A DNA stretch of 64,000 bases from Burkholderiaceae bacterium (GTDB lineage Bacteria; Pseudomonadota; Gammaproteobacteria; Burkholderiales; Burkholderiaceae_F): positions 62,001 through 126,000 of the forward strand of contig JAFAIM010000060.1 in NCBI GenBank assembly GCA_019236735.1. Direction: 5' to 3'. Both the position numbers and the translations under genes were made by a program. Shown here piece by piece: positions 3,645-21,324 of this stretch (within the stretch, counting starts at the first letter, position 1; the number at the start of each line of letters is the position of its first letter). The notes below the pieces were generated by a model. That model was not told the origin of the DNA and did no database searches. It saw only the letters and a list, made by a program, of their open reading frames with translations.

Positions 3645-4280
3645 TTACGCGAGCCCGTGTTTGACCGCGTAGTGCACCAGCTCCGAGTTGTTCTCCATGT
3701 GCATCTTCTCGAGGATCCGGGCCCGGTACACGCTCACCGTCTTCGGACTGAGGGATAGCGTCAGGGCGATGTCGGACAGCCTCTGCCCGGAGGCCATCAG
3801 CTTCAGGACCTGGAACTCGCGGTCGGACAGCCGTTCGTGCGGCAGGCCGTCTTCCGGAGCGGCGAGCTGGTGGATCAGCGCCTGCGCAATCACCGGGGTG
3901 ACGTACTTGCGCCCGGCCACGATCTGATCGACCGCCTCCAGCAGCTTCTCCGGGGCGCTCGCCTTGTTCAGGTAACCGCTCGCGCCGGCCTTGAACGCGC
4001 GCACGGCGTACTGCTCCTCCGGGTACATGCTGATGATCAGCACTTTCAGCCGCGGGTAATCGCCGTGCAGTGCTTTCAGGATCTCGATTCCGTCCTTGCC
4101 GGGTAGGGACAGATCCATCACCAGCAGGTCGACTTCGCCGTGCTGCCGCAGTTGCGCACGCAACTGGCCATAATCCGCCGCCTCCGACACCACGCTCAGG
4201 TCAGACCGCTCGGCCAGGATATCGACGATCCCGCGCCGGACGATTGCGTGGTCGTCGATGACGATGACCCGAAGGCTCAT
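3645..4280 (-). CDS. NarL/FixJ-type response regulator (REC plus LuxR HTH)
   Basis: 211 aa, starting at the ATG at 4280-4278; the longer track ORF runs into the kinase gene. An N-terminal receiver (VIVIDDHAIVRRG, phospho-Asp in LLVMDLSLPGKDG, Lys in YLNKAS) is followed by a C-terminal LuxR-type helix-turn-helix (LSDREFQVLKLMASG ... SPKTVSVYRARILEKM). It is expected to bind DNA after phosphorylation. Its start overlaps the last bases of the upstream kinase gene by four bases, so the two are almost certainly a cognate pair. The target genes are not evident from the window. Confidence 0.92.
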   Translation of the reverse strand: MSLRVIVIDDHAIVRRGIVDILAERSDLSVVSEAADYGQLRAQLRQHGEVDLLVMDLSLPGKDGIEILKALHGDYPRLKVLIISMYPEEQYAVRAFKAGASGYLNKASAPEKLLEAVDQIVAGRKYVTPVIAQALIHQLAAPEDGLPHERLSDREFQVLKLMASGQRLSDIALTLSLSPKTVSVYRARILEKMHMENNSELVHYAVKHGLA

Positions 4281-5374
4281 GCCGTTCGGCTCGCCGGTAC
4301 CGAGAACATCAGCGTCATGCCGCGGTTCGGGGCCGAGCTCACTTCGGCCCAGCCGCCCAGCCCTCGCGCCCGTTCCATCAGCACACGCAGGCCAAACCCA
4401 GGCGAGGTTCGCAGCAGCTGAGGGTCGAATCCGACCCCGTCGTCGCTGATCTCCAGCGATACTTCGTGATCCGAAGCGAACAACTGGACCGTCACGCGCT
4501 TGGCGTGCGCGTGCTTCGACACATTGGCGAGCGCCTCCTGCGCCACACGGTACAGCGCCGCCGAGGTGTCGGCGCCGAGTGGCGCGTCTTCGCGATTCGT
4601 CTCGAAGCTCGCCTGCACTCCGGTTCGCTCGGCGAACGAAGCCACTAGCCATTGGAGCGCCTCCACCAGCCCCGCGTCGAGCACGGGAGGCCGCAGATTG
4701 TGCTGGATCCGGTGGCTGGCGCCGACCAGTTCGCCGATCAAATCCAGCATGCGCCGTACGCGCGGCGCATCAACGCGCTGCTGCTGCAACTGCCGCGCCA
4801 GCGCCACGGTTTCGAAACGCAAGGCGGTCAGCATGGCTCCGATCTCGTCGTGGATCTCGCTCGCGATACGCCGCCGCTCGTCTTCCTTGGCGGATTCCAG
4901 GTGTTTCGTCAGTTGGCGCAGGCGCTCCTCGCTCTCGGTGAGTGCTGCGGCGGCTGCGCGGCCGGCGCGACGCTGCGCAGCCGCTTGCAGGCTCCGTGCG
5001 AGGGCCGGGCCGGCCCGGAACAGTCTGGACTTCAGGATGAAATCGTCAGCCCCGGCGTGCAGCGCCGCCACCGCGAGGTCTTCCGACATCTCGCCGGAGA
5101 CGACCAGCACCGGAAGATCCGGATCGGCGGCCTTTGCCAGCTTCAGCGCCGCGAACGAATCGAAGCGCGGCATGTTGTGGTCCGTCAGAACGGCATCAAC
5201 CGGCCCGCGCGCAAACGCCTCTCGCATCCCTGCTTCGTCCTCGACGCGTTCGGCTCGCAGCGGCATGCCCTCGCGGACCAGCATGGCCGTCAGCAGGTCG
5301 AAGTCGAGCTCCGAGTCTTCGACGACCAGCAAACGGATCGGGGCGACTTCGGTGCTGCGCGCAGGCACGTTCAT
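4277..5374 (-). CDS. Histidine kinase with N-terminal receiver domain (REC-HisKA_3-HATPase)
   Basis: 365 aa from the ATG at 5374-5372; the track's 499-aa version would overlap the divergent gene at 5550. Residues ~12-130 form a receiver domain (LLVVEDSELDFD, Asp in AVLTDHNMP, Lys in DFILKS). A coiled linker leads to a NarX/DegS-type dimerisation and phosphoacceptor helix (RRRIASEIHDEIGAMLTALR). A HATPase follows (ALYRVAQEALANVSKHAHA, DDGVGFDP, GFGLRVLMERA). There is no membrane segment, so it must take its input from another kinase through the receiver or from the cytoplasm. Its partner is the overlapping NarL-type regulator. Having the receiver ahead of the kinase core suggests phosphorelay input or cross-talk with neighbouring systems. 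Confidence 0.88.
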   Translation of the reverse strand: MNVPARSTEVAPIRLLVVEDSELDFDLLTAMLVREGMPLRAERVEDEAGMREAFARGPVDAVLTDHNMPRFDSFAALKLAKAADPDLPVLVVSGEMSEDLAVAALHAGADDFILKSRLFRAGPALARSLQAAAQRRAGRAAAAALTESEERLRQLTKHLESAKEDERRRIASEIHDEIGAMLTALRFETVALARQLQQQRVDAPRVRRMLDLIGELVGASHRIQHNLRPPVLDAGLVEALQWLVASFAERTGVQASFETNREDAPLGADTSAALYRVAQEALANVSKHAHAKRVTVQLFASDHEVSLEISDDGVGFDPQLLRTSPGFGLRVLMERARGLGGWAEVSSAPNRGMTLMFSVPASRTA

Positions 5375-5549: not shown

Positions 5550-5954
5550 ATGACTTCCGATTCTACTGAGCGCGCGCCGCACAGCCGGCAAGGCGCCGAT
5601 CCGGCCGAAGAGTGCAAGCGGATCGAATCGGACCTGGAGCGTCTGAAGGCGCTGATCGGTGACGCCGGCGATCGCCTGCTGCTCAGCTTCAACCAGATCG
5701 CGGCTCTGCTGCCGCAGCTGGCGGCGACGGACGAGGAGCGCGCGCAAGTCGTCGAGTCGGTGCACGCGGCCGTCACAGCACTGCAGTTTCAGGACATGGC
5801 GATTCAGCTGACCGAGCACGCGCAGCGGCACCTGTCGTCCCTCGAGGAACAGCTGCGAAGCCAGTCCGTTCTTGGACCGGACGGCACGCATTCGCACCCC
5901 ACGCATCCGGTGCGGCAGTTCGGGATGGCGGCAGGTTCGATCGATCTTTTCTAA
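5550..5954 (+). CDS. Small CheZ-like protein heading the chemotaxis operon (candidate CheY-P phosphatase)
   Basis: 134 aa from the ATG at 5550 (a TTG immediately before it gives 135 aa). It is predicted to be all helical: a first helix around residues 18-58 and a second around 62-100, ending in a flexible Ser/His/Pro tail. The second helix contains LQFQDMAIQ. The Asp82 and Gln86 spacing (D-x-x-x-Q inside an FQD context) is the arrangement of the two catalytic residues in CheZ (FQDLTGQ). It lies 35 bp upstream of cheY. The phosphatase role is inference: the protein is much shorter than CheZ (~210 aa) and I cannot identify a CheY-binding C-terminal helix. Otherwise it is an uncharacterised chemotaxis accessory protein. 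Confidence 0.72.
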   Translation: MTSDSTERAPHSRQGADPAEECKRIESDLERLKALIGDAGDRLLLSFNQIAALLPQLAATDEERAQVVESVHAAVTALQFQDMAIQLTEHAQRHLSSLEEQLRSQSVLGPDGTHSHPTHPVRQFGMAAGSIDLF

Positions 5955-5989: not shown

Positions 5990-6352
5990 ATGCAGTCGAT
6001 TCTTGCGGTGGACGATTCGGCCTCGATGCGGCAGATGGTCTCTTTCACCCTGAAGGGTGCGGGTTACGAGGTCATCGAGGCCGTCGACGGCCAGGAGGCC
6101 TTCGAAAAAGCCCAGACGCAGAGTGTCGACCTGGTCCTGACCGACCAGAACATGCCGCGGATGGATGGTGTCACGCTGGTGAAGAACCTGCGTGGCTTGC
6201 CGGCCTACTCGTCAACGCCGATCCTGATCCTCACCACCGAGTCCAGCGACGAGATGAAGTCGCGCGGCCGCGCCGCCGGTGCGACCGGATGGCTCGTCAA
6301 GCCGTTCGATCCGAGCAAGCTTCTCGAGGTGATCCGCAAGGTCATCCGCTGA
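5990..6352 (+). CDS. cheY: Chemotaxis response regulator CheY
   Basis: 120 aa, a single receiver domain. The ATG at 5990 is chosen over the track's 5966 because it follows GGCAGGAGCAGCC and gives the usual short N-terminus (MQSILAVDDS). The acidic pair is DD at 8-9, the phosphoacceptor is Asp52 (LVLTDQNMPRMDG), the Thr is in ILTTES and the conserved Lys is in WLVKPFDP. It carries the output of CheA to the motor or another effector. It stands 10 bp upstream of cheA in the che operon. The sequence favours CheY over a generic single-domain regulator mainly because of this context. Confidence 0.93.
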   Translation: MQSILAVDDSASMRQMVSFTLKGAGYEVIEAVDGQEAFEKAQTQSVDLVLTDQNMPRMDGVTLVKNLRGLPAYSSTPILILTTESSDEMKSRGRAAGATGWLVKPFDPSKLLEVIRKVIR

Positions 6353-6362
6353 CGAGACGGCG

Positions 6363-8378
6363 ATGGGAGAGATCAGCAACCCCGGGCTTCAGGACGACGG
6401 TTTCGACCTTTCGCAGTTCTATACGGTCTTCTTCGAGGAGGCCCGCGAAAACCTCGCCAACATGGAGTCGATGTTGCTGGACATCGACATCGCGCGCCCC
6501 TCCGACGAGGAGCTGAACGCCATTTTCCGCGTCGCGCATTCGATCAAAGGGGGAGCCGCCACGTTCAGCTTCACCGAGGTGGCGACACTGACGCATGAGC
6601 TGGAAACCCTGCTGGACCGCTTGCGCAAGCACGAGCTGTCACTAAAACGGCCGATGGTCGACCTGCTGTTGGAAGCGGGCGACGTCGTCAAGGCGCAGCT
6701 CGCGTGCCGCCAGGGCAACTCGGACCACAGTCCGCCGGCTGACGCCCTGATTCAGCGCATTCGCGTCATGGCGGCAGGCCAGGACGAACGGCCGGGCGCG
6801 ACGGGCGCGCGCGTCCTGGACATCCGCATCGGCCCGCTGCAAAGCGGCGCAGCCGCGGACGGGCTGGTGGAGCTGTTCTACGACATCCCTGCGCTCGGGT
6901 CGATCGAAGTGCTCGACCAGGGTCAGTTGTCGACCGACCGGATGCGACGCTTCAAGGTGACCACACAGTCGCCGGACTCGGAACTGGTGGAGCTGTTCTC
7001 GTTCCATGTCTCGCGCGAGCAGGTGCAGATCGCACCGATCGAATCGGCGGCTTCGACGTCGGCCGAAGGCGACGGCTATGGCTTCTTCGTCGATCCACAG
7101 ACGCTGCCGCAGGTGAGCAAGGAAACGCCGGCGGGCGCCGGCGCGGCCGAGGGGGAAGCTTCGCGCCGGCCGGACGGGCGCGCACGCACGGACAAACCGG
7201 CGGCGGGGGCCCTCGAATCGACCACGTTGCGCGTTTCGGTCGAGAAGGTCGACCATCTGATCAACCTGGTGGGCGAGCTCGTGATCACGCAGGCGATGCT
7301 GACGCAACGGGCCAAAGATCTCGATCCGATCCAGTTCAGCTCGTTGCTGGGCGGCATGACCGAGCTGGAGCGCAACTCGCGCGACCTGCAGGAAACGGTG
7401 ATGTCGATCCGGATGATCCCGATGTCGTTCGTGTTCAACCGGTTCCCGCGGATGATCCGCGACTTGGCCGCCAAGCTGGGCAAACAGATCGAGTTGCGGA
7501 TGGTCGGTGAGGCCACCGAGCTGGATAAAGGCTTGATCGAAAAGATCGTCGATCCGCTGACGCATCTGGTGCGCAACAGCGCCGACCACGGAGTCGAAAC
7601 GCCTGCCATGCGGCTGGCTGCCGGCAAGCTTCCGCACGGCACGATCACGCTGTCGGCGGCGCACCAGGGCGGATCGATCTTGATCGAGGTGCGCGATGAC
7701 GGGCAGGGGCTGCGGCGCGAGCGCATCCTGCAGAAAGCGCGCGAGCGCGGCCTGCACGTGCGCGATGACATGACGGACGCGGAAGTTTGGGCGCTGATCT
7801 GGGAGCCGGGCTTCTCCACGGCCGAGACCGTGAGCGATGTGTCCGGGCGCGGCGTCGGCATGGACGTCGTGCGTAAGAACATCACGGCGCTCAACGGCAG
7901 CGTCGAGCTCGATTCGGCGGAGGGGTATGGCACGCGCGTGACAGTGCGGCTGCCTCTGACCCTGGCGATCATGGACGGCATGTCGATCGGGGTCGCCGGC
8001 GAAACCTACATCCTGCCGCTGGCTTCGGTGGTCGAGTCGTTCCAGGTGACAACCGGAATGGTGCAGACGGTGGGTACCACCGGCCGAGTCGTCAAGGTAC
8101 GCGACGAGTTCATGCCGGTGATCTCGCTCGACGAGGTCTTCCGCGTGCAGCGTCCGGACCGCACTTCGGCAGCCGAGATCATGACGGTTGTCGAGGCAGA
8201 AGGCCGGCGCGTAGGCGTGATGATCGATGAGCTGCTCGGCCAGCACCAGGTGGTGGTGAAGAACCTGGAGACCAACTATCGGCGCGTTCCGGATATCTCC
8301 GGAGCGACCATTCTGGGCGACGGGCGCGTGGCGCTGATCGTCGATACGGCCAGCCTGGTAAAGCGGGCCCGCCATTGA
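6363..8378 (+). CDS. cheA: Chemotaxis histidine kinase CheA
   Basis: 671 aa. The HPt domain holds the phosphorylated His59 in VAHSIKGGAATF. A middle region (~140-240) could be a P2-like or spacer domain and is followed by a Pro/Ala linker. The dimerisation domain (TLRVSVEKVDHLINLVGELV) starts near residue 285. The HATPase has LTHLVRNSADHGVE, DDGQGL and SGRGVGMDVV, and the C-terminus is a CheW-like P5 domain. It autophosphorylates with ATP in complex with receptors and CheW and passes phosphate to CheY and CheB. It lies between cheY and cheW with short gaps. Confidence 0.96.
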   Translation: MGEISNPGLQDDGFDLSQFYTVFFEEARENLANMESMLLDIDIARPSDEELNAIFRVAHSIKGGAATFSFTEVATLTHELETLLDRLRKHELSLKRPMVDLLLEAGDVVKAQLACRQGNSDHSPPADALIQRIRVMAAGQDERPGATGARVLDIRIGPLQSGAAADGLVELFYDIPALGSIEVLDQGQLSTDRMRRFKVTTQSPDSELVELFSFHVSREQVQIAPIESAASTSAEGDGYGFFVDPQTLPQVSKETPAGAGAAEGEASRRPDGRARTDKPAAGALESTTLRVSVEKVDHLINLVGELVITQAMLTQRAKDLDPIQFSSLLGGMTELERNSRDLQETVMSIRMIPMSFVFNRFPRMIRDLAAKLGKQIELRMVGEATELDKGLIEKIVDPLTHLVRNSADHGVETPAMRLAAGKLPHGTITLSAAHQGGSILIEVRDDGQGLRRERILQKARERGLHVRDDMTDAEVWALIWEPGFSTAETVSDVSGRGVGMDVVRKNITALNGSVELDSAEGYGTRVTVRLPLTLAIMDGMSIGVAGETYILPLASVVESFQVTTGMVQTVGTTGRVVKVRDEFMPVISLDEVFRVQRPDRTSAAEIMTVVEAEGRRVGVMIDELLGQHQVVVKNLETNYRRVPDISGATILGDGRVALIVDTASLVKRARH

Positions 8379-8401: not shown

Positions 8402-8911
8402 ATGGGAATGATGGAACGCATCGACATCGGAACCGAAATGGCAGTTCGGGTCCGTGAGTTTCTGACCTTCAAGTTGGGCGGCGAGGAGTACGGCATCGAC
8501 ATCCTGAAGGTGCAGGAGATCCGCGGTTACGAAGCGGTGACTCGCATCGCCAACGCGCCGGCCTTCATCAAGGGCGTGGTCAATCTGCGCGGCGTGATCG
8601 TCCCGATCGTCGATCTGCGCGTGAAATTCGAGCTGGGTGAAGCGCGCTACGACACCTTCACCGTGGTCATCATCCTGAACGTGGCGGGCCGCGTGGTGGG
8701 CGCCGTCGTCGATTCGGTCAGCGATGTGCTGGCGCTGGATGGGAAGCAGATCAAGCCGGCTCCCGAATTCAACTCGCTGCTGCAGGCTGACTACATCACC
8801 GGGCTGGGAACGGTCCCGACGGCCGACGGCGAGCGCCTGTTGATCCTGGTCGACATCGAGCGCCTGATGAGCAGTCCGGAAATGGGTCTGGTGGAGCGAG
8901 CGGCGGCCTGA
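8402..8911 (+). CDS. cheW: Chemotaxis adaptor protein CheW
   Basis: 169 aa, a single CheW domain. The motifs [36 protein letters not shown] and [11 protein letters not shown] are typical of the SH3-like adaptor that links receptors to CheA. The short N-terminal extension ([15 protein letters not shown]) is slightly longer than usual. It begins 23 bp after cheA. No methyl-accepting receptor gene is present in the window, so the receptors must be encoded elsewhere. Confidence 0.95.
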
Positions 8912-8954: not shown

Positions 8955-9839
8955 ATGGGAGCACGCGACCTCGACGACAGCCCGTCCGCGCCCGCGGGCG
9001 GAGGCGACCCGAGCGTGTTCGATTTGAGCGTGCGCGATTTCGAGCGCGTGCGCCGCATCATCCTTGGGCTCGCCGGGATCGACCTGAGCCCGAGCAAGCA
9101 GAACATGGTGTACAGCCGTCTGTCGCGCCGGCTGCGGGCACGCAACGAGGAATCGTTCGAAAGCTACCTGGACCGCCTGGAGAGGGATTCGCGTTTCGCG
9201 CAGGAGGAGCGGCAGGAGTTCGTCAATTCGCTGACGACGAACCTGACGTCGTTCTTCCGTGAGCCACACCACTTTGCGGTGCTGGCTGACTTTTTGCGGC
9301 AGAGTCCCGCCGGTGCGCCGCAACGCATCTGGTGTGCGGCGGCTTCGACGGGCGAGGAACCCTACTCGATCGCGATGACCGCGATCGAGGCGCTCGGCGA
9401 GGATTGCGCGGTGAAAATCCTGGCCACCGACATCGACACCCAGGTGCTCGCCAGCGCCGGCCGTGGCGTCTACGGCGGGCAGGCCACCACCCGGACTTGC
9501 GGCGATCAGCGGCTGCGCCGCTTCTTCCTGCGCGGAACCGGCCCGAACGATGGGATGGTGCGGGTACGCCCGGAAGTGGCGCGCCGGATCGAATTCGCGC
9601 AGCTGAACCTGCAGGAGGCGCAATGGCCGCTGCTGGCGCGTTTTGGCGCGCCGCTCGATGCCGTCTTCTGCCGCAACGTGATGATTTACTTCAACCGGGC
9701 CACGCAGCACGAGGTACTGCGACGGATCGCCGCGGCGCTGCGGCCGGGCGGCCTGCTGTTCGCAGGCCACTCCGAGAACTTCACGGACTGTCGTGAATGG
9801 TTCGCGCTCCGCGGCAGGACCGTCTACGAAAGACTCTGA
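8955..9839 (+). CDS. cheR: Chemotaxis protein methyltransferase CheR
   Basis: 294 aa. The N-terminal helical CheR domain (FERVRRIILGLAGIDLSPSKQ) precedes a SAM-binding methyltransferase fold with AASTGEEPYSIAM (SAM loop), ATDIDTQVLASA and FCRNVMIYF. It methylates glutamates of chemoreceptors using S-adenosylmethionine and so sets adaptation. The stop is followed one base later by the cheD GTG. The last residues (GRTVYERL) match the usual C-terminus, so the gene is complete. Confidence 0.95.
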   Translation: MGARDLDDSPSAPAGGGDPSVFDLSVRDFERVRRIILGLAGIDLSPSKQNMVYSRLSRRLRARNEESFESYLDRLERDSRFAQEERQEFVNSLTTNLTSFFREPHHFAVLADFLRQSPAGAPQRIWCAAASTGEEPYSIAMTAIEALGEDCAVKILATDIDTQVLASAGRGVYGGQATTRTCGDQRLRRFFLRGTGPNDGMVRVRPEVARRIEFAQLNLQEAQWPLLARFGAPLDAVFCRNVMIYFNRATQHEVLRRIAAALRPGGLLFAGHSENFTDCREWFALRGRTVYERL

Positions 9840-9840
9840 C

Positions 9841-10485
9841 GTGCAAGCTCGACGCGCGAAACCGGCGGTTGCGCCGCGCTTATCCGGCGCGAGCGGAGAG
9901 GCACGCACCGTGTATTACGAGCGCGAGTTCGAGCGCAATGCGGTGAAGGTGATGCCGGGCGAATATTTCGTCTCCGCAGACGACATCGTGCTCGCGACGG
10001 TGCTGGGTTCGTGCGTCGCGGCCTGCGTCTGGGACCCGAGCGCGCGAGTCGGCGGAATGAACCACTTCATGCTCCCGGGCGACGGCAGCAGAACGGGCCG
10101 CCATGATTGGATCGGGCTGGCGGGCCGCTATGGCGTGTTCGCGATGGAGCAGCTGATCAACGAACTGATCAAGCGCGGCGCGCGCAAGGCGAACCTGGAA
10201 GCCAAAGTGTTCGGCGGCAGTGCGGTGCTCAAGAATCTGACGGCGCTGAACGTGGGCGAGCGCAATGCCGATTTCGTGCTCGACTTCCTGCGCACGGAAG
10301 GCATTCGCCTGGCCGCGCAGGATCTGCTGGACGTGTGCCCGCGCCGCGTCGTGTTCTTTCCGGCCAGCGGGCGCGCGCTGTGCCGCAAGCTGCCGCAAGC
10401 GGACGCTTCGATCGTCAACGCCGAACAGCAGTACAACGCACGCATCAACACCGCCAAGTCCGGCGGCGACGTCGAACTGTTCTGA
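9841..10485 (+). CDS. cheD: Chemoreceptor glutamine deamidase CheD
   Basis: 214 aa from the GTG at 9841, one base after cheR; the track's 9793 start overlaps cheR. A second GTG at 9910 would give a shorter protein starting at the conserved part. The core has the CheD catalytic Cys and His in TVLGSCVAACVWD and GGMNHFMLP, plus AKVFGGSAVL and RRVVFFPASGRALCRKLP. CheD deamidates specific glutamines of chemoreceptors and can act together with CheY phosphatases of the CheC/X type. No cheC or cheX is seen here; the small CheZ-like gene at the operon head may serve that role. Confidence 0.92.
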   Translation: MQARRAKPAVAPRLSGASGEARTVYYEREFERNAVKVMPGEYFVSADDIVLATVLGSCVAACVWDPSARVGGMNHFMLPGDGSRTGRHDWIGLAGRYGVFAMEQLINELIKRGARKANLEAKVFGGSAVLKNLTALNVGERNADFVLDFLRTEGIRLAAQDLLDVCPRRVVFFPASGRALCRKLPQADASIVNAEQQYNARINTAKSGGDVELF

Positions 10486-10488
10486 GTC

Positions 10489-11562
10489 ATGTCCAAGACG
10501 CGCGTTCTGATCATCGACGATTCGGCACTCGTGCGCAGCCTGCTGGCGGAGATCGTGAACCGGGAGCCGGATCTGGAGGCGGTCGGCGCCGCTCCTGACC
10601 CGTTCGTGGCGCGCGAGATGATTCGCTCGCTGAATCCGGACGTACTGACGCTCGACATCGAGATGCCCAGGATGGACGGTCTGGATTTTCTGGAGCGCCT
10701 GATGCGGCTTCGCCCGACTCCGGTCGTGATGGTCTCGACGCTGACCGAGCGTGGCGCCGAGGTCACGCTAAAAGCGCTCGAGCTCGGTGCGATCGACTTT
10801 GTTCTGAAGCCGCGCCTGGGAATTTCGGCGGGCATGCGGGAGATCGCCGCCGAGATCTGCGAGAAGATCCGCATTGCCTCGAAAGTTCGGCTGAATCGGC
10901 ACCTGCAGCCGAGCTTGCAGCCGGCGCACTCGGGCGAAAAGAGCGCTCTGGCGCGGTACTCACGCGTATCGACCGAGAAGTTGATCGCGATCGGTGCCTC
11001 CACGGGCGGCACCGAGGCGATTCGCGAGGTCATCGGGCGACTCGAGGCAGATTCGCCGGCGGTGCTGATCACGCAGCACATGCCGCCCGGCTTCACGCGC
11101 AGCTTCGCTGCTCGCTTGGATGGCGTGTGCAAGATGCGGGTCGCCGAGGCGGTGCACGGTGAGCGGGCGCTTCCGGGCCACGCCTACGTCGCACCGGGCG
11201 ACCGGCACATGCGGCTGGAACGCTCCGGCGCTGATTACCGGATCGCGCTCGATGACGGCCCACCGGTGAACCGGCACCGACCTTCGGTCGAGGTTCTGTT
11301 CCGCTCGGTCGCCGCCGTGGCCGGGCTGAACGCGCTCGGCGTGATGTTGACCGGAATGGGTCGCGATGGCGCCACCGCAATGCTCGAGATGAAGCATGCC
11401 GGTGCTTTCAACATCGCGCAGGACGAGGCCAGTTGCGTCGTGTTCGGCATGCCGCGCGAAGCAATCGCCGCAGGCGCCGTCGATGAAGTATTGCCGGTCA
11501 CCAAGATCGCCGAACGGCTGCAGTCACGCCTGGCCGAAATCGGCGCAACCCACCGGATCTGA
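10489..11562 (+). CDS. cheB: Chemotaxis protein-glutamate methylesterase CheB
   Basis: 357 aa. The receiver domain ([14 protein letters not shown], Asp in [12 protein letters not shown], Lys in DFVLKPR) is joined by a linker to the methylesterase domain. That domain holds the catalytic Ser in [11 protein letters not shown], His in [12 protein letters not shown] and Asp in [10 protein letters not shown]. It removes methyl groups from receptors when phosphorylated by CheA and completes the adaptation module with CheR and CheD. It is the last gene of the operon; the RNase P RNA gene follows within about 25 bp. Confidence 0.96.
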
Positions 11563-15260: not shown

Positions 15261-15300
15261 GGCAGGTTGGCAGCATGGCAGGTTCGCAGCACGGCAGGTT
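15261..15300 (+). repeat. 16-bp tandem repeat overlapping the fimT start
   Basis: GGCAGGTT occurs at 15261, 15277 and 15293, in units GGCAGGTTGGCAGCAT, GGCAGGTTCGCAGCAC and a partial third copy. The fimT ATG (15275) is inside the array and the first unit supplies AGGCAGG as a possible ribosome site. Change in copy number could alter the start region. The 279 bp between the membrane-protein gene and fimT hold nothing else recognisable. Confidence 0.7.
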
Positions 15301-15829
15301 TCTGGTGAATCGCCGGGTGGCAGCGCGACTGCATACACGCGGCGTCACGCTGGTCGAAGCAATGGTGGTGGTCGCCGTGCTGTCGATCCTGACATCCATC
15401 GCGGTGCCCTCGTTCAACACATTCCTTGGGCGCAGCAGCACGCTCGGAGTCGAAAGCGAGTTCGTCAATGCCATCAGCTTCGCCCGCAGCGAGGCGATGC
15501 GCCGTGGGGTGCCGGTCGCCGTGACCGCCAAATCACCGGTGGGGGGTAACGGCTTCGGTCAGGGCTGGTTCATCTGGGTCGACAGCAATGCGAACTCGGT
15601 ATTCGGAACGGGAGACCCGGTTCTGCGCGCCCACGCCGCCTATCCGGCTGACGTGTCGCTCGGCGACGGCAGCGTCACGCAGATCTATTTCAATCAGCAG
15701 GGATATCTCGTCGGCGCTCTGTGGCAGTTGAAAGCCTGCAGCACGAACGCCGCCGGAGCAACCGGCTACCAGATCACCATTACCGCGGGAGGCGTCATCG
15801 ATGTGCAGGATGCGGTCAGCTGCCCGTAG
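15275..15829 (+). CDS. fimT: Type IV pilus minor pilin FimT/GspH
   Basis: 184 aa. The prepilin cleavage site is TRG|VTLVEAMVVV, with Glu at +5 and a following hydrophobic helix (VVVAVLSILTSIAVPSF). The C-terminal domain has the GspH/FimT pattern (FARSEAMRRGVPVAV ... GFGQGWFIWVDSN ... YFNQQGYL). The leader is longer than average (23 residues). It should be cut and methylated by PilD and sit in the pilus-initiating minor pilin complex. It is the first gene of fimT-pilV-pilW-pilX-pilY1-pilE; pilV overlaps its end. Confidence 0.88.
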   Translation: MAGSQHGRFLVNRRVAARLHTRGVTLVEAMVVVAVLSILTSIAVPSFNTFLGRSSTLGVESEFVNAISFARSEAMRRGVPVAVTAKSPVGGNGFGQGWFIWVDSNANSVFGTGDPVLRAHAAYPADVSLGDGSVTQIYFNQQGYLVGALWQLKACSTNAAGATGYQITITAGGVIDVQDAVSCP

Positions 15830-16352
15830 CGGCGCCGGCCACCGCGGGCGCGCTTCGGGCGGCTTCTTTTTGATCGAAGTGCTGGTGTCGATCATCATCA
15901 TCACGATCGGCCTGCTCGGCATGGCCGGCTTGCATGCGGTGGCGATCGCGAAGGGCAACAGCAGCTTGCTCAGATCCAAGGCGACGCAGCTGGGCTATGC
16001 GATGGCCGACCGGATTCGGGTCAATCTGATCGCTTCCAGCGCCGGCGCGTATGCGACTCTGACACCGGGGTCGGGCCTGACCGATCCGGGTTGCATCAAC
16101 ACCGGCTGCACGCCGGCACAGCTTGCGGTGTCCGATTACGTGGAATGGAACACCGAGGTCGCGAGCTCGCTGCCGCAAGGCGCCGGTGTGGTGTGCGTCG
16201 ATAGCACACCGGACGACGGCACCGCGGCTTCGCCGGACTGCGACGGAATTGGAAACGTGCTGGTGGTCAAGGTGTTCTGGACCGAAAAAGCGTCGCAGGG
16301 GCAGACGACGCCGCCCACGTTCGTTTTCTCGACGCCGGTGCGGCCGTCATGA
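15801..16352 (+). CDS. pilV: Type IV pilus minor pilin PilV
   Basis: 183 aa from the ATG at 15801; an ATG at 15810 is an equal alternative. It overlaps fimT by ~29 bp. The cleavage site is SGG|FFLIEVLVSI with Glu at +5, then a hydrophobic helix and the PilV feature GLLGMAGLHAVAI. The remainder contains Cys pairs that could form disulfides (CINTGC, CVDS ... DCDG). PilV works with PilW, PilX and FimT to prime pilus assembly and carry PilY1. The stop overlaps the pilW ATG. Confidence 0.88.
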   Translation: MCRMRSAARSGAGHRGRASGGFFLIEVLVSIIIITIGLLGMAGLHAVAIAKGNSSLLRSKATQLGYAMADRIRVNLIASSAGAYATLTPGSGLTDPGCINTGCTPAQLAVSDYVEWNTEVASSLPQGAGVVCVDSTPDDGTAASPDCDGIGNVLVVKVFWTEKASQGQTTPPTFVFSTPVRPS

Positions 16353-17368
16353 ACATATCCGGCCAAGCCGGCGCCACACTGGTTGAATTGATGATCGCGA
16401 TGACGTTGGCGCTGCTGCTGTCGGGGGCGGCGGCGATGATCGCGATCAACAGCAAGTCGGTGTTCCGTGCCAACTCGGCTGTTGCGCGGCTTCAAGACAA
16501 TGCGCGATTCGCGCTCGACACGCTGTCGCGCGATTTGCGGATGGCGGGCTTCAACGGGTGCGCGGGGAGCAGCACATCGACCGCGAGCAAGCTCAACGCG
16601 GCCGGCTTCCAATATCTGTATTCGAACGGGCTGCTGGGTTTTCACGCGATAGGCGCCGGCTGGGCGCCTGCGTTGGACGCCAGCATCAGTGCGCTTGCGC
16701 CGTCGCCAATGGCCGGAACCGACGTGATGACGGTGCGCACCATCAGCGGCAGCCCGATCGCCTTGACCGCGGCGATGGCCGGCTCGACCGGGGCGCTCAC
16801 GGTCGATCCGGCAAGCGGTCTGGCGCTGGGCGACATCGTGATGGCTTCGAACTGCTCGAATTCGGTCATGTTCGAAATCACGGCGGATCCGAGCCTCGGT
16901 TCGATCGCACACTCCACAGGCGGGCCGGTACCGGGCAACGCCACTGCAGATCTCGGCGTCAGCTTCGGCACCGATGCGTCCGTGTACCGGTTCGTGACAC
17001 ACACCTACTACGTTGCGCCGAGCGTGCTGCAGCCGGGGACCGATTCGCTCTGGCTGTACAGCGTGCCGAACTATGGCGGCACGGCCAATCCGCACGAGAT
17101 GGTCGAAGGCGTGCAGAACATCGGATTGTTGTTCGGCGAGGATACCGACGGCGACGGCGTTCCGAACCGCTACGTCACCGCCGATGCCGTTGGCACGTGG
17201 GCCAACGTGGTCGCAATCCGGGTCGAGCTGTTGATGCAGACGGTCCAGAACAATCTGGCGACCTCGGCGCAGCCGTACACGTTCAACGGGGTGGCGACGG
17301 TGCCGTCGGACCTGCGTATCCGCACCGTGATGAATTCCACCATTTCGGTTCGCAACAGGAATCCGTAA
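16349..17368 (+). CDS. pilW: Type IV pilus minor pilin PilW
   Basis: 339 aa, start coupled to pilV by ATGA. The prepilin motif is QAG|ATLVELMIAMTLAL with Glu at +5. The middle shows LQDNARFALDTLSRDLRMAGFNGC, the hallmark of the PilW family, followed by a large beta-rich domain typical of this longest minor pilin. It belongs to the pilus tip-priming complex with FimT, PilV, PilX and PilY1. PilX starts three bases later. Confidence 0.9.
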   Translation: MNISGQAGATLVELMIAMTLALLLSGAAAMIAINSKSVFRANSAVARLQDNARFALDTLSRDLRMAGFNGCAGSSTSTASKLNAAGFQYLYSNGLLGFHAIGAGWAPALDASISALAPSPMAGTDVMTVRTISGSPIALTAAMAGSTGALTVDPASGLALGDIVMASNCSNSVMFEITADPSLGSIAHSTGGPVPGNATADLGVSFGTDASVYRFVTHTYYVAPSVLQPGTDSLWLYSVPNYGGTANPHEMVEGVQNIGLLFGEDTDGDGVPNRYVTADAVGTWANVVAIRVELLMQTVQNNLATSAQPYTFNGVATVPSDLRIRTVMNSTISVRNRNP

Positions 17369-17370
17369 CG

Positions 17371-17952
17371 ATGAAACACAACAGCTGCGCAGATGCTGCG
17401 AGGGCGCGACAGGCTCAGCGCGGACTGTCGCTGATCATTACGCTGGTGATGCTGGTCGGAATCACTCTGCTCGGCCTGGCGGCGATCGGTGGCACCGTGA
17501 TGCAGGAAAAAATCGCGGGCAACACGCGCGACATGAATCTTGCCTTTCAGGCGGTCGAAGCCGGGCTGCGCGACGCCGAAAGCGACATTTCCCGGAACAT
17601 CAGTTCCAGCGCGAATTTCACGTCCGGGTGCAGCCTGGGACTGTGCACACCCGCGTCGACCTGGCCGACTCCGACCTCCACGCCATTGTGGAAGCTGATC
17701 AATTGGAACGGCGGATCGACCCGCACCTACGGCGCATACACGGGTGCGGCGGCGCTGTCGCCCGACCTGGCGGCCCCACCGCTCTACGTGATCGAAAAAT
17801 TGAGCACCCAGAAACCCGGCCAGGGTGATTCCTTGGGGATCGGGCTGGCGCCGAACATCGGCTCTGGCACGTACTACCGCACCACCGTGTACGCCACCGG
17901 GGGTCGCCCCGACACGCATGTTGTTGCTCAGTCCGTTTACTTGAAGCACTGA
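17371..17952 (+). CDS. pilX: Type IV pilus assembly protein PilX
   Basis: 193 aa from the ATG at 17371, two bases after the pilW stop. The leader ends QRG|LSLIITLVMLVGITLLG and, as in the PilX family, lacks Glu at +5. The PilX segment QEKIAGNTRDMNLAFQAVEAGLRDAE is clear. It is thought to bridge the minor pilins with PilY1. PilY1 begins three bases downstream. Confidence 0.88.
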   Translation: MKHNSCADAARARQAQRGLSLIITLVMLVGITLLGLAAIGGTVMQEKIAGNTRDMNLAFQAVEAGLRDAESDISRNISSSANFTSGCSLGLCTPASTWPTPTSTPLWKLINWNGGSTRTYGAYTGAAALSPDLAAPPLYVIEKLSTQKPGQGDSLGIGLAPNIGSGTYYRTTVYATGGRPDTHVVAQSVYLKH

Positions 17953-17955
17953 GCG

Positions 17956-20900
17956 ATGCTGAAGCAGCGGCTGATGCTTTTCGGCCTGACCGCAGCGGCG
18001 CTGGTTCCGGCCGCCGAAGCCGCTGGGCTGCCGGGCTACCTGAATTTGGCGCAGTACCCGTTGTTCCTGTCGGGCAACGTGGCGCCCAACGTGCTCGTGC
18101 TGTACGACAACTCCGAGTCGATGGATGGAACGATGGCCGGCAAATTGATCGCCGGCAGCGATCCAACGACGCGCGGCAATATCGCGCGCAGCGTGATCAC
18201 CAGCACGATTTCCAGCTATCGGACTTCTTTCAACTGGGGTTTGGCCAGTTTCCAGCACGACGGCGACGGCGCCAGCCGCCCGGCCGGCACGCTGTACAAC
18301 ACGTTTGCGTACTACTTTGGCGATTCGTCCACGCCGCCCAGCCCGACCGCGATGGTTTTCACCAACGATTGCGTCAACGGCATCTCGGCCTCCAATGCGG
18401 GCGAGCGCTGCATCGCCAACCCGCAGCCGGTCAATGGGTACTCGTATATCACCTATGCCGCGTCCGGCGACGATCCGGACATCAACGACGTGCTGTATTA
18501 CGGCGGAAACTTCACCAACTTGTGGGGAATCGGCATCAACGGGACCACCAGTTATAACGTGTACTCGAGCCGCAATGCCACGTCCAACGCCACCAGCTGG
18601 ACCAGCGCCGATTTCAGCACGAGCGGCTGCGGCATTTGCGGCACTTGGGGCTTCACGCCGACCGATGCCGGCTTCCTTCCGTCTACCCCTCCGTATCCAC
18701 GCCAGTTTTGGGTCCCGCGCGCCTGGGGGTACCTGAACAATCCAAGCGGTGCCGCCCGCATCTGGGAAACGGTGCAGCCGGATTCGACCGCGCACTACAA
18801 CCGATTGATGACGCTGCTGGCTCCCGAGACCGGCACCTGGAACAGCGGCGAGCTGAAAAACGCGTCCGTGTACACGCCGCTGCGCGGCAGCGTCAAGACC
18901 GCCGGCCAGTACTTCGCGGGGACCAGCGGCAACACCAGCCCGATCACGCTGTCGTGCCAGAAGAATTTCGTGCTGCTCGCTACCGACGGCAATCCGACCG
19001 CGGAACTCGACGGCAGCATGTATCCGCCGGCGCAGATGGTCAACACGTACAACGCGGCCAGCGGGACGTGGACATTCTCCCAGGCGGCGCAGGACGTGTT
19101 CCCACAGATCAGCGCTTTGCGCAGCACTGTGTTCAACGGCACAACCTATGACGTCCAGACCTACGTGGTTGGATTGGGTGACACCGTTCAGAACCCCGGG
19201 TCCATCGCGGTACTCAACCAGTTTGCGCTGCTAGGGGGAACCGGGGCTGCGTACCTCGCAACCGACAGCAACAGCCTGGCTACGGCGTTTGCCACGATCA
19301 GCAGCGACATCGTCAGCAAGGTGGCGTCCGATTCAGCGGTCGCGTTGAACGCCGGCTCGTGGTCCAACGGCGAAGATCTGTACCAGGCGCGCTTCGGCAG
19401 CGCCGGATGGAGCGGTCAGCTGCTCGCGCTGCCGATCAGTTCGACCGGGCAGCTGGGCACGCAACAGTGGGATTCCGGCCAGGTTCTGAACGGTCAGGAC
19501 TGGTCGAGCGGGCGTCAGATTCTGACGTTCAAGCCTTCGGGCACGGCCGGCGCACAGGGAATCGCGTTCCGTTGGCCGGTCAACGCATCCAGACCGACCG
19601 CCACCGAGCTGGATCCGTCGCAAGTGACGGCGTTGAACACGAGCTCTACCGGAAGCGTGGACGGCTACGGCTCTCTGCGCTTGCAATACTTGCGTGGCCA
19701 GCGAAGCAACGAGCAGGCAGGCTGTCCGACCTGCACGCCGGCCTTTCGCACGCGACCGACATCGGTGCTCGGCGACCTGATCGACTCGGCGCCGTATTAC
19801 GTGGCGGCGCCCGCGTACGGTTACCCCGATACGATGGAATCGGTTCCGTACAGCTCGTTCGCTACGGCCTACGCGGGACGCACGCCGATGCTCTATGTTG
19901 GCGGCAACGACGGCATGCTGCACGCGTTTGCGGCAGCGGACGGGCACGAGGTGCTCGCCTACGTTCCGGCGTCGGTGTTTGCCAACCTGAGCCAGCTCAC
20001 CGCCCCGAGCTATTCGCACCGCTTCTTTGTGGACGGCTCACCAACCGTCGGCGACGCTTTCTACGGCGGCCGCTGGCATACGCTGCTCGTGGGCGGCCTG
20101 CGGGCCGGCGGTCAGGCCATCTACGCGCTCGACGTGACCGACCCGAGCAGCTTCTCGGAACGCAACGCCGCGGGCATCGTCAACTGGGAATTCAGCGACG
20201 CCAACGACGCCGATCTGGGCGACACCTTCGGTGCTCCGCTGATCGTGAAGACCAACAACGGGCGCTGGTCCGTGATCATCAGCAGCGGCTACGACAATAC
20301 GCAGTCCGATGCGCACGCGAGCACGACCGGCGACGCATTCTTGTTCGTTCTCGATGCGCAGACGGGAGCCGTCACGGCCAAGATCGCAACGCATTCGGGA
20401 ACCGTCACAAGCCCGAACGGCTTGTCCGGGGCGATTGCGATCGATACGAATGGCGACGGAATCGCCGATACGGTCTATGCCGGCGACTTGCTGGGCAATC
20501 TGTGGAAGTTCGATATTTCGTCGTCGAGCCCAACGGCGTGGAAAGTTGCCTACGGCGCGCCGCTGTTCACCGACCCGAACCATCAGCCGATCACGAGCCG
20601 GCCCGACGTGACGCTGTTCCCGGGCGGCGGCTATCTGGTCGTGTTCGGGACCGGCCGCTACATCGATGTGACGGATACAACGACGACCGGTGCGCAGACC
20701 TTCTATGGCATACGCGACAACGGCGCGCCGGTCACTGGTTTGTCATCGCTGGTCAAGCAATCGGTGCTGGGAACGGCGGTGGGATCAGACGGCAACACGT
20801 ACCGGATTACCACGCATGCGGTCGGTCGGGCAACCCTCGACGCGGCTGAAAGCGGAGACAACGCGGTATCGACTGCGACCTATGCCGGCATGAACGGGTG

Positions 20901-21324
20901 GTACATGAGCCTGCCGGACGTCGGCGAACGGGTCATTGCCGATCCAGCGGTCCGTTCCGGGCGGGTGGTCTTCGTAACGCTGGAGCCCAATACCGCGACG
21001 TGCAGCTCCGGCGGCAGCGGCTGGGTGATGGACCTGGATGTCGCGACCGGGAACCGGTTGGATCGGGTCACGTTCGACACGAACAACGACTCGACCCTGA
21101 CCAACGCCGATTTGCTGAACTTTGGTGGAAACTCCGCGAACTCCAGCGGGGAGAAACTCGGGTCGATACCCGCTGATCCAGGCTTCATGCGAATGCCCGT
21201 GGTCTCGGGGCAGCAGCCGACCGAGAAAAAGTACATCAACACCTCGTCCGGACAGATCGCAGCGCCGACCGAAACGGCGGGCAGTGCGGTCAATCGCCGC
21301 GTTTCATGGGAGCAACTGCAATGA
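17956..21324 (+). CDS. pilY1: Type IV pilus tip adhesin/assembly protein PilY1
   Basis: 1122 aa with a signal peptide (LFGLTAAALVPAAEAAG). The N-terminal half contains a von Willebrand A-like fold with a MIDAS-type DNSESM motif. The C-terminal half is a beta-propeller: TPMLYVGGNDGMLHAFAAADG opens it, and a calcium-loop motif DTNGDGIADTVYAGD is followed by LGNLWKFD. In characterised PilY1 proteins that calcium site controls pilus extension versus retraction. Cysteines near the middle (GCPTCTP) may be disulfide bonded. The stop is coupled to a small secreted protein by ATGA. Confidence 0.92.
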   Translation: MLKQRLMLFGLTAAALVPAAEAAGLPGYLNLAQYPLFLSGNVAPNVLVLYDNSESMDGTMAGKLIAGSDPTTRGNIARSVITSTISSYRTSFNWGLASFQHDGDGASRPAGTLYNTFAYYFGDSSTPPSPTAMVFTNDCVNGISASNAGERCIANPQPVNGYSYITYAASGDDPDINDVLYYGGNFTNLWGIGINGTTSYNVYSSRNATSNATSWTSADFSTSGCGICGTWGFTPTDAGFLPSTPPYPRQFWVPRAWGYLNNPSGAARIWETVQPDSTAHYNRLMTLLAPETGTWNSGELKNASVYTPLRGSVKTAGQYFAGTSGNTSPITLSCQKNFVLLATDGNPTAELDGSMYPPAQMVNTYNAASGTWTFSQAAQDVFPQISALRSTVFNGTTYDVQTYVVGLGDTVQNPGSIAVLNQFALLGGTGAAYLATDSNSLATAFATISSDIVSKVASDSAVALNAGSWSNGEDLYQARFGSAGWSGQLLALPISSTGQLGTQQWDSGQVLNGQDWSSGRQILTFKPSGTAGAQGIAFRWPVNASRPTATELDPSQVTALNTSSTGSVDGYGSLRLQYLRGQRSNEQAGCPTCTPAFRTRPTSVLGDLIDSAPYYVAAPAYGYPDTMESVPYSSFATAYAGRTPMLYVGGNDGMLHAFAAADGHEVLAYVPASVFANLSQLTAPSYSHRFFVDGSPTVGDAFYGGRWHTLLVGGLRAGGQAIYALDVTDPSSFSERNAAGIVNWEFSDANDADLGDTFGAPLIVKTNNGRWSVIISSGYDNTQSDAHASTTGDAFLFVLDAQTGAVTAKIATHSGTVTSPNGLSGAIAIDTNGDGIADTVYAGDLLGNLWKFDISSSSPTAWKVAYGAPLFTDPNHQPITSRPDVTLFPGGGYLVVFGTGRYIDVTDTTTTGAQTFYGIRDNGAPVTGLSSLVKQSVLGTAVGSDGNTYRITTHAVGRATLDAAESGDNAVSTATYAGMNGWYMSLPDVGERVIADPAVRSGRVVFVTLEPNTATCSSGGSGWVMDLDVATGNRLDRVTFDTNNDSTLTNADLLNFGGNSANSSGEKLGSIPADPGFMRMPVVSGQQPTEKKYINTSSGQIAAPTETAGSAVNRRVSWEQLQ

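Follow-up and report, generated by a model that had tools for sequence, protein, structure and literature searches.

Results

A small gene at the head of a chemotaxis cluster

The window analysed here, the whole stretch of 64,000 nucleotides from a Burkholderiaceae genome (3.3 Mb in 95 contigs, 95% complete), carries a che cluster with the gene order 134-aa ORF-cheY-cheA-cheW-cheR-cheD-cheB, in which a gap of 38 bp separates the small ORF from cheY. The features discussed below are as follows.

5550..5954, + strand: stand-alone McpA-tail module and candidate CheY phosphatase, 134 aa, stop codon included (named from orthologues and family)
5601..5717, + strand: predicted helix 1, residues 18-56 (AlphaFold2 model)
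5730..5867, + strand: predicted helix 2, residues 61-106, bearing the motif (AlphaFold2 model)
5787..5807, + strand: FQDMAIQ, residues 80-86, with D82 and Q86 as candidate catalytic pair
5907..5951, + strand: conserved C-terminal tail PVRQFGMAAGSIDLF, residues 120-134
5993..6352, + strand: cheY, F7 type by context, phospho-acceptor D52 (start set by alignment with relatives)
6363..8378, + strand: cheA
8402..8911, + strand: cheW
8955..9839, + strand: cheR
9793..10485, + strand: cheD (start codon uncertain)
10489..11562, + strand: cheB

As the preliminary description of this DNA had stated, no cheZ, cheC or cheX is seen within the che cluster of the window. A canonical cheZ (E 1.4e-64) is present on another contig, C43, where it stands within a flagellar cluster next to a second cheY; such a gene elsewhere in the genome, combined with inactivity of the small protein, had been named in advance as grounds for giving up a CheZ-like reading, and it is the first part of this combination that was found. 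The search for CheW domains returned a further set on contig C46, which includes a frame of 2210 codons, a size known from pilus-type (ChpA-like) kinases, and judging from the frame size and the pil genes this set is apparently of the pilus type. With the other set apparently pilus-like, the cluster in the window holds the only flagellar-type CheA found, and there are two CheYs, one paired with cheZ and the other with the 134-aa protein. The arrangement resembles the 'stage 3' F7 arrangement of betaproteobacteria (PMC7184735), and the F7 class of the cluster is assigned from gene order and that study rather than from class-specific HMMs.

Elsewhere in the window, minor pilin-like genes and a PilY1-like gene (about 1,120 aa) lie at 15275-21324 on the + strand, which fits the apparently pilus-type CheA set on C46. 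Upstream of the module, at 3645-5373 on the - strand, a divergent pair encodes a LuxR-type response regulator and a receiver-histidine kinase, and this pair is kept beside the module in the compared genomes of the family.

The small protein belongs to a widespread module

The ORF of 134 aa and its F80-Q-D82-M-A-I-Q86 string, in which Asp and Gln had been noticed to stand at the spacing of CheZ in a small protein before cheY, were both confirmed. Among the window ORFs of at least 80 codons in six frames (86,049 residues) there are two matches to the pattern [FY][QEH]D[LMIV]xxQ, one being FQDMAIQ and the other lying in an antisense frame; the motif at 5550-5954 is real and beyond chance. In the same GTDB family the protein is found in 10 genomes, always in front of an orthologous cheY, and the gene can be regarded as real because the nine orthologues are 45-63% identical to it, the gene order is kept and dN/dS against the nearest orthologue is about 0.39.

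Searches with the 134-aa protein against the Pfam and NCBIfam profiles gave nothing above the cut-off, and the matches to Phage_Gp19 (Pfam, E 0.17) and to TrkA and RpoD (NCBIfam), all far under it, were set aside. A single-sequence scan of genome contigs likewise gave no relatives, which had to be found by alignment. Profile matches were then obtained in 171 of 399 genomes of an order-wide sample, and a sequence-only search of named genomes gave 542 relatives, from which 80 loci were kept, including those of Acidovorax, Paracidovorax, Roseateles, Rubrivivax, Ideonella, Piscinibacter and Hydrogenophaga. At every one of the 80 loci a cheY that is 68-84% identical to the cheY of the window lies 24-126 bp downstream. 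Versions of about 190 aa precede cheY in other Burkholderiales, and a search of a plasmid collection gave no matches to the module. The family consensus consists of a helix LQF[QEH]D[MIL]xxQ, a linker and a C-terminal PVxQxxMxxG[SDE][VI][DE]LF, and the 134-aa protein is thus a member of an unnamed, widespread module that occurs free or as the tail of chemoreceptors.

Within the GTDB family the module is present in 10 of the 11 genomes with FliM and in none of the 26 without it. Canonical cheZ also occurs in 9 of the 10 genomes with the module, the tenth genome being 61% complete, and the idea that the module replaces CheZ was rejected on this account. Two loci, from a Thiocapsa MAG (L135) and a Bordetella parapertussis MAG (L125), look like those of Comamonadaceae or Sphaerotilaceae, and these are probably mislabelled or contaminated MAGs.

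Conservation of the Asp/Gln pair and of the C-terminal tail

Every one of the 141 distinct modules keeps D82 and Q86, as do all 71 members of a subset picked without the peptide pattern, although some ascertainment bias is left in this invariance as the module profiles themselves contain the motif. The neighbouring residues vary, with Q, E or H at residue 81 and S, T and others at residue 85. Most gammaproteobacterial McpA-like receptors have FED in the motif, with Glu for the Gln before Asp and with Asp and the later Gln kept (L211, L213, L215, L217 and L218 after cheB; L220 and L221 before cheY). A divergent MCP-fused form in a 441-aa frame (L022), with FQDRVSQ and a C-terminal DDITFF, falls outside the usual consensus.

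The C-terminal tail is among the most conserved parts of the module: V121, Q123, G129, L133 and F134 are kept in 95-100% of the 141 members, and position 131 is [VI] in 140 of the 141, the window protein ending in SIDLF. The earlier suggestion that a CheY-tethering tail is apparently absent is therefore not borne out as regards the presence of a conserved tail, though this tail is unlike that of CheZ. Compared with CheZ-C and FliM-N, PVRQFGMAAGSIDLF scores no higher than shuffles. Mimicry of CheZ-C (VDDLLxSLGF type) was rejected since the tails as a set score like shuffles, whereas mimicry of FliM-N, rejected for the window protein by the shuffle test, holds for some relatives: many tails show PVTQSEMDAGSIELF, near the FliM-N consensus LSQDEVDALL, and 32% of the distinct tails lie above the 95th percentile of shuffles. 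Docking of CheY through the tail is put forward here as a hypothesis.

Predicted structure and comparison with CheZ

AlphaFold2 models the monomer as two helices folded into a hairpin, followed by a disordered tail (mean pLDDT 77). Foldseek against the PDB gave no significant match, the best ones being chemoreceptor hairpins and not CheZ, and sequence searches of the PDB gave nothing informative; a strong-looking match to Tako8 was rejected, as it merely repeated an 11-residue string.

The proposal of a minimal CheZ-like phosphatase fares differently on its two sides, for the Asp-x3-Gln signature is invariant and aligns in register with the CheZ helix, while the protein lies outside the CheZ profiles (PF04344 and NF041271), against which family members reach at best an E of about 0.01, below the cut-off. 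CheZ is nevertheless the Pfam family touched by most members (6 of 39, below threshold). In hhalign the module matches CheZ with a probability of 1-18%, below threshold, and always at the catalytic helix of CheZ and in register. E. coli CheZ (1kmi_Z) is matched over residues 141-169 with an E of 2.7. The full-family profile scores 25.5 against CheZ, where 100 column shuffles reach 22.9 at most, and the receptor-fused profile likewise lies above all 100 column shuffles, whereas the short-form profile alone (43 rows) does no better than column shuffles, 15 of 100 being as high. Taken together, the profile comparisons are suggestive of a likeness of the module to CheZ.

In CheZ, the Asp and the Gln have catalytic roles. 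The module shares with CheZ (PF04344, NF041271; 1KMI) the Phe-x-Asp-x3-Gln string on a long helix, an all-helical build, a gene adjoining cheY and a conserved C-terminal tail ending in Phe; it differs in being about half the length of CheZ, in its tail, in lacking the other stretches conserved in CheZ, in lying outside the CheZ profiles and in coexisting with canonical cheZ. The Asp-x3-Gln pair is also common to HisKA_3 kinases with a DxxxQ motif, where it acts in the dephosphorylation of response regulators; there, in contrast, the motif follows the phospho-accepting His in the DHp domain of the kinase, and the 134-aa protein has neither the His nor a kinase domain.

Link to McpA-like receptors

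MCP-signal proteins of about 400 aa carry the same motif helix and C-terminal peptide at their end, and hhalign joins the stand-alone and the receptor-fused modules with 99.7% probability (E 3.7e-25). With a profile derived from the receptors, 111 of the 369 genomes of the class give a match at E <= 1e-4; this number takes in the genome of the window and some stand-alone forms. The gammaproteobacterial receptors are encoded directly after cheB in cheA-cheW-cheR-cheD-cheB, or before cheY, and these two places are those in which mcpA-like receptors are reported for stage 1 and stage 2 (PMC7184735). The C-terminus of McpA has been described as highly conserved, with Val replacing the aromatic residue of the pentapeptide and with a role called 'unclear' (PMC7184735), a description that fits G[SDE][VI][DE]LF and is matched by the 134-aa protein, whose SIDLF has no aromatic residue at position 2 of the pentapeptide. 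In two gammaproteobacteria a stand-alone module of about 226 aa that ends in GDVTLF is found after cheB, the mcpA position (L229:4130-4807 and L230:3880-4581).

The module sits within an F7 che cluster that has cheD, or next to one, and it apparently shares with the McpA-like receptors (CttP/PA0180, VCA1088, SO_2117) this position, the motif helix and the C-terminal G[SDE][VI][DE]LF, the 134-aa protein differing from them in that it lacks both the MCP signalling domain and the membrane part. The C-terminal module of McpA-like receptors, with McpA linked by position, size and the described C-terminus, would accordingly be the better frame for the stand-alone protein. When 83 modules were placed in a tree (128 columns, weakly supported), the stand-alone forms of Burkholderiales fell into one clade of 48 (SH-aLRT 93), which lies apart from the receptor-fused forms and is tentatively read as a single loss of the receptor part. 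Additional changes of architecture on the tree involve three proteins of about 400 aa, read as fused forms missed by the classification.

Discussion

The best single explanation for the 134-aa protein, as a function predicted from its sequence, is that it works like CheZ. We put at roughly one half the probability that this stand-alone McpA-like C-terminal module is a dedicated CheZ-like dephosphorylation factor for the F7 CheY, with catalysis by the Asp/Gln pair as the presumed activity. In its favour count the linkage to cheY at 80 of 80 loci, the invariance of the Asp and the Gln, the register with the CheZ helix and the tracking of FliM; against it count the lack of any profile above cut-off, the lack of a CheZ fold match and the coexistence of canonical CheZ. 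According to this model, CheA would phosphorylate both CheYs, of which the motor CheY would be cleared by CheZ and the F7 CheY by the module. The module may dimerise into a four-helix bundle, with the tail or the helix surface docking CheY-P, and D82 would then contact the active-site Lys of CheY and Q86 position the attacking water, both as in CheZ. Fast hydrolysis of F7 CheY-P could make this CheY an efficient phosphate sink beside a motor CheY with its own CheZ.

Published work on Comamonas testosteroni bears on this model from both sides. Its F7 CheY1, encoded directly before cheA, takes phosphate from CheA and loses it fast, it has been proposed as a phosphate sink, and deletion of cheY1 reduces chemotaxis partly (PMC6391922). 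CheY1-P is, however, already short-lived without a partner, which counts against the phosphatase reading; CheA and CheY1 of this organism have already been purified (PMC6391922). In Rhodobacter sphaeroides the phosphatase domain of CheA3 is specific for CheY6 and makes it a phosphate sink (PMC2924250). The likeness is one of logic, namely that a phosphatase for one CheY is built into another chemotaxis protein, although in CheA3 it is a domain of a kinase and not of a receptor.

The strict linkage to cheY and the conserved tail would also suit a non-catalytic adaptor, whose helix and tail hold the F7 CheY (or CheB/CheD) near the array or off the motor and in which Asp and Gln form an interface. 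The tails of many members from Comamonadaceae and Sphaerotilaceae (VTQSEMDAGSIELF), which are like FliM-N, point the same way, but the tail of the window protein has no such resemblance, and an adaptor has no obvious need for the exact D-x3-Q of CheZ with the preceding Phe, which is invariant over the gamma- and betaproteobacterial forms; we regard this as unlikely. Rather improbable is a remnant of an McpA-like receptor that acts in docking or array assembly alone (with CheB, CheR, CheD or the receptor bundle), its motif being a structural part of a packed coiled-coil helix. The occurrence of the module at the end of MCP proteins, the chemoreceptor hairpins among the best fold matches and a tail loosely like the NWETF-type pentapeptide (with Ile or Val at position 2) agree with such a role, yet for P. 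aeruginosa McpA the C-terminus is reported to bind none of the four CheR proteins (PMC7184735), the stand-alone form, which offers no receptor domain for methylation or assembly, is still kept beside cheY across Burkholderiales, and a buried structural role leaves the invariance of two polar residues at a spacing of 4 unexplained. It is very improbable that the protein dephosphorylates or modulates a different partner, chiefly the motor CheY encoded in the second cheY-cheZ pair, so that one output would have two phosphatases. Shewanella McpA does cluster with the flagellar F6 (CheA3) array and raises swimming on overproduction (PMC9855816), and the module tracks flagella in the GTDB family, but the gene linkage is to the F7 cheY and not to that pair, and an increase in swimming was seen with three further receptors in that assay (PMC9855816).

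Beyond the dedicated phosphatase for the F7 CheY, we propose tentatively, at a little under even odds, that the tail of McpA-like receptors and, in many Burkholderiales, the small free protein dedicated to the ancestral F7 CheY form a second, hitherto unrecognised D/Q-type class of CheY phosphatases, in which McpA would be a receptor-phosphatase able to link F6 arrays to F7 output. A candidate phosphatase module in McpA-like receptors was not found in the literature searched, which covered few subscription journals. If the proposal is true, it would account for the McpA tail; a phosphatase module at this place would provide the step of signal termination that is missing and would bear on why McpA, which is encoded with F7, sits in F6 arrays.

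In the published account the mcpA-like gene was lost at stage 3 (PMC7184735). Our data suggest that its C-terminal part was kept as a stand-alone module, and if so, the McpA gene did not vanish entirely at this stage but survives as a small protein, and the view that McpA disappeared as the flagellum came under F7 would need revision.
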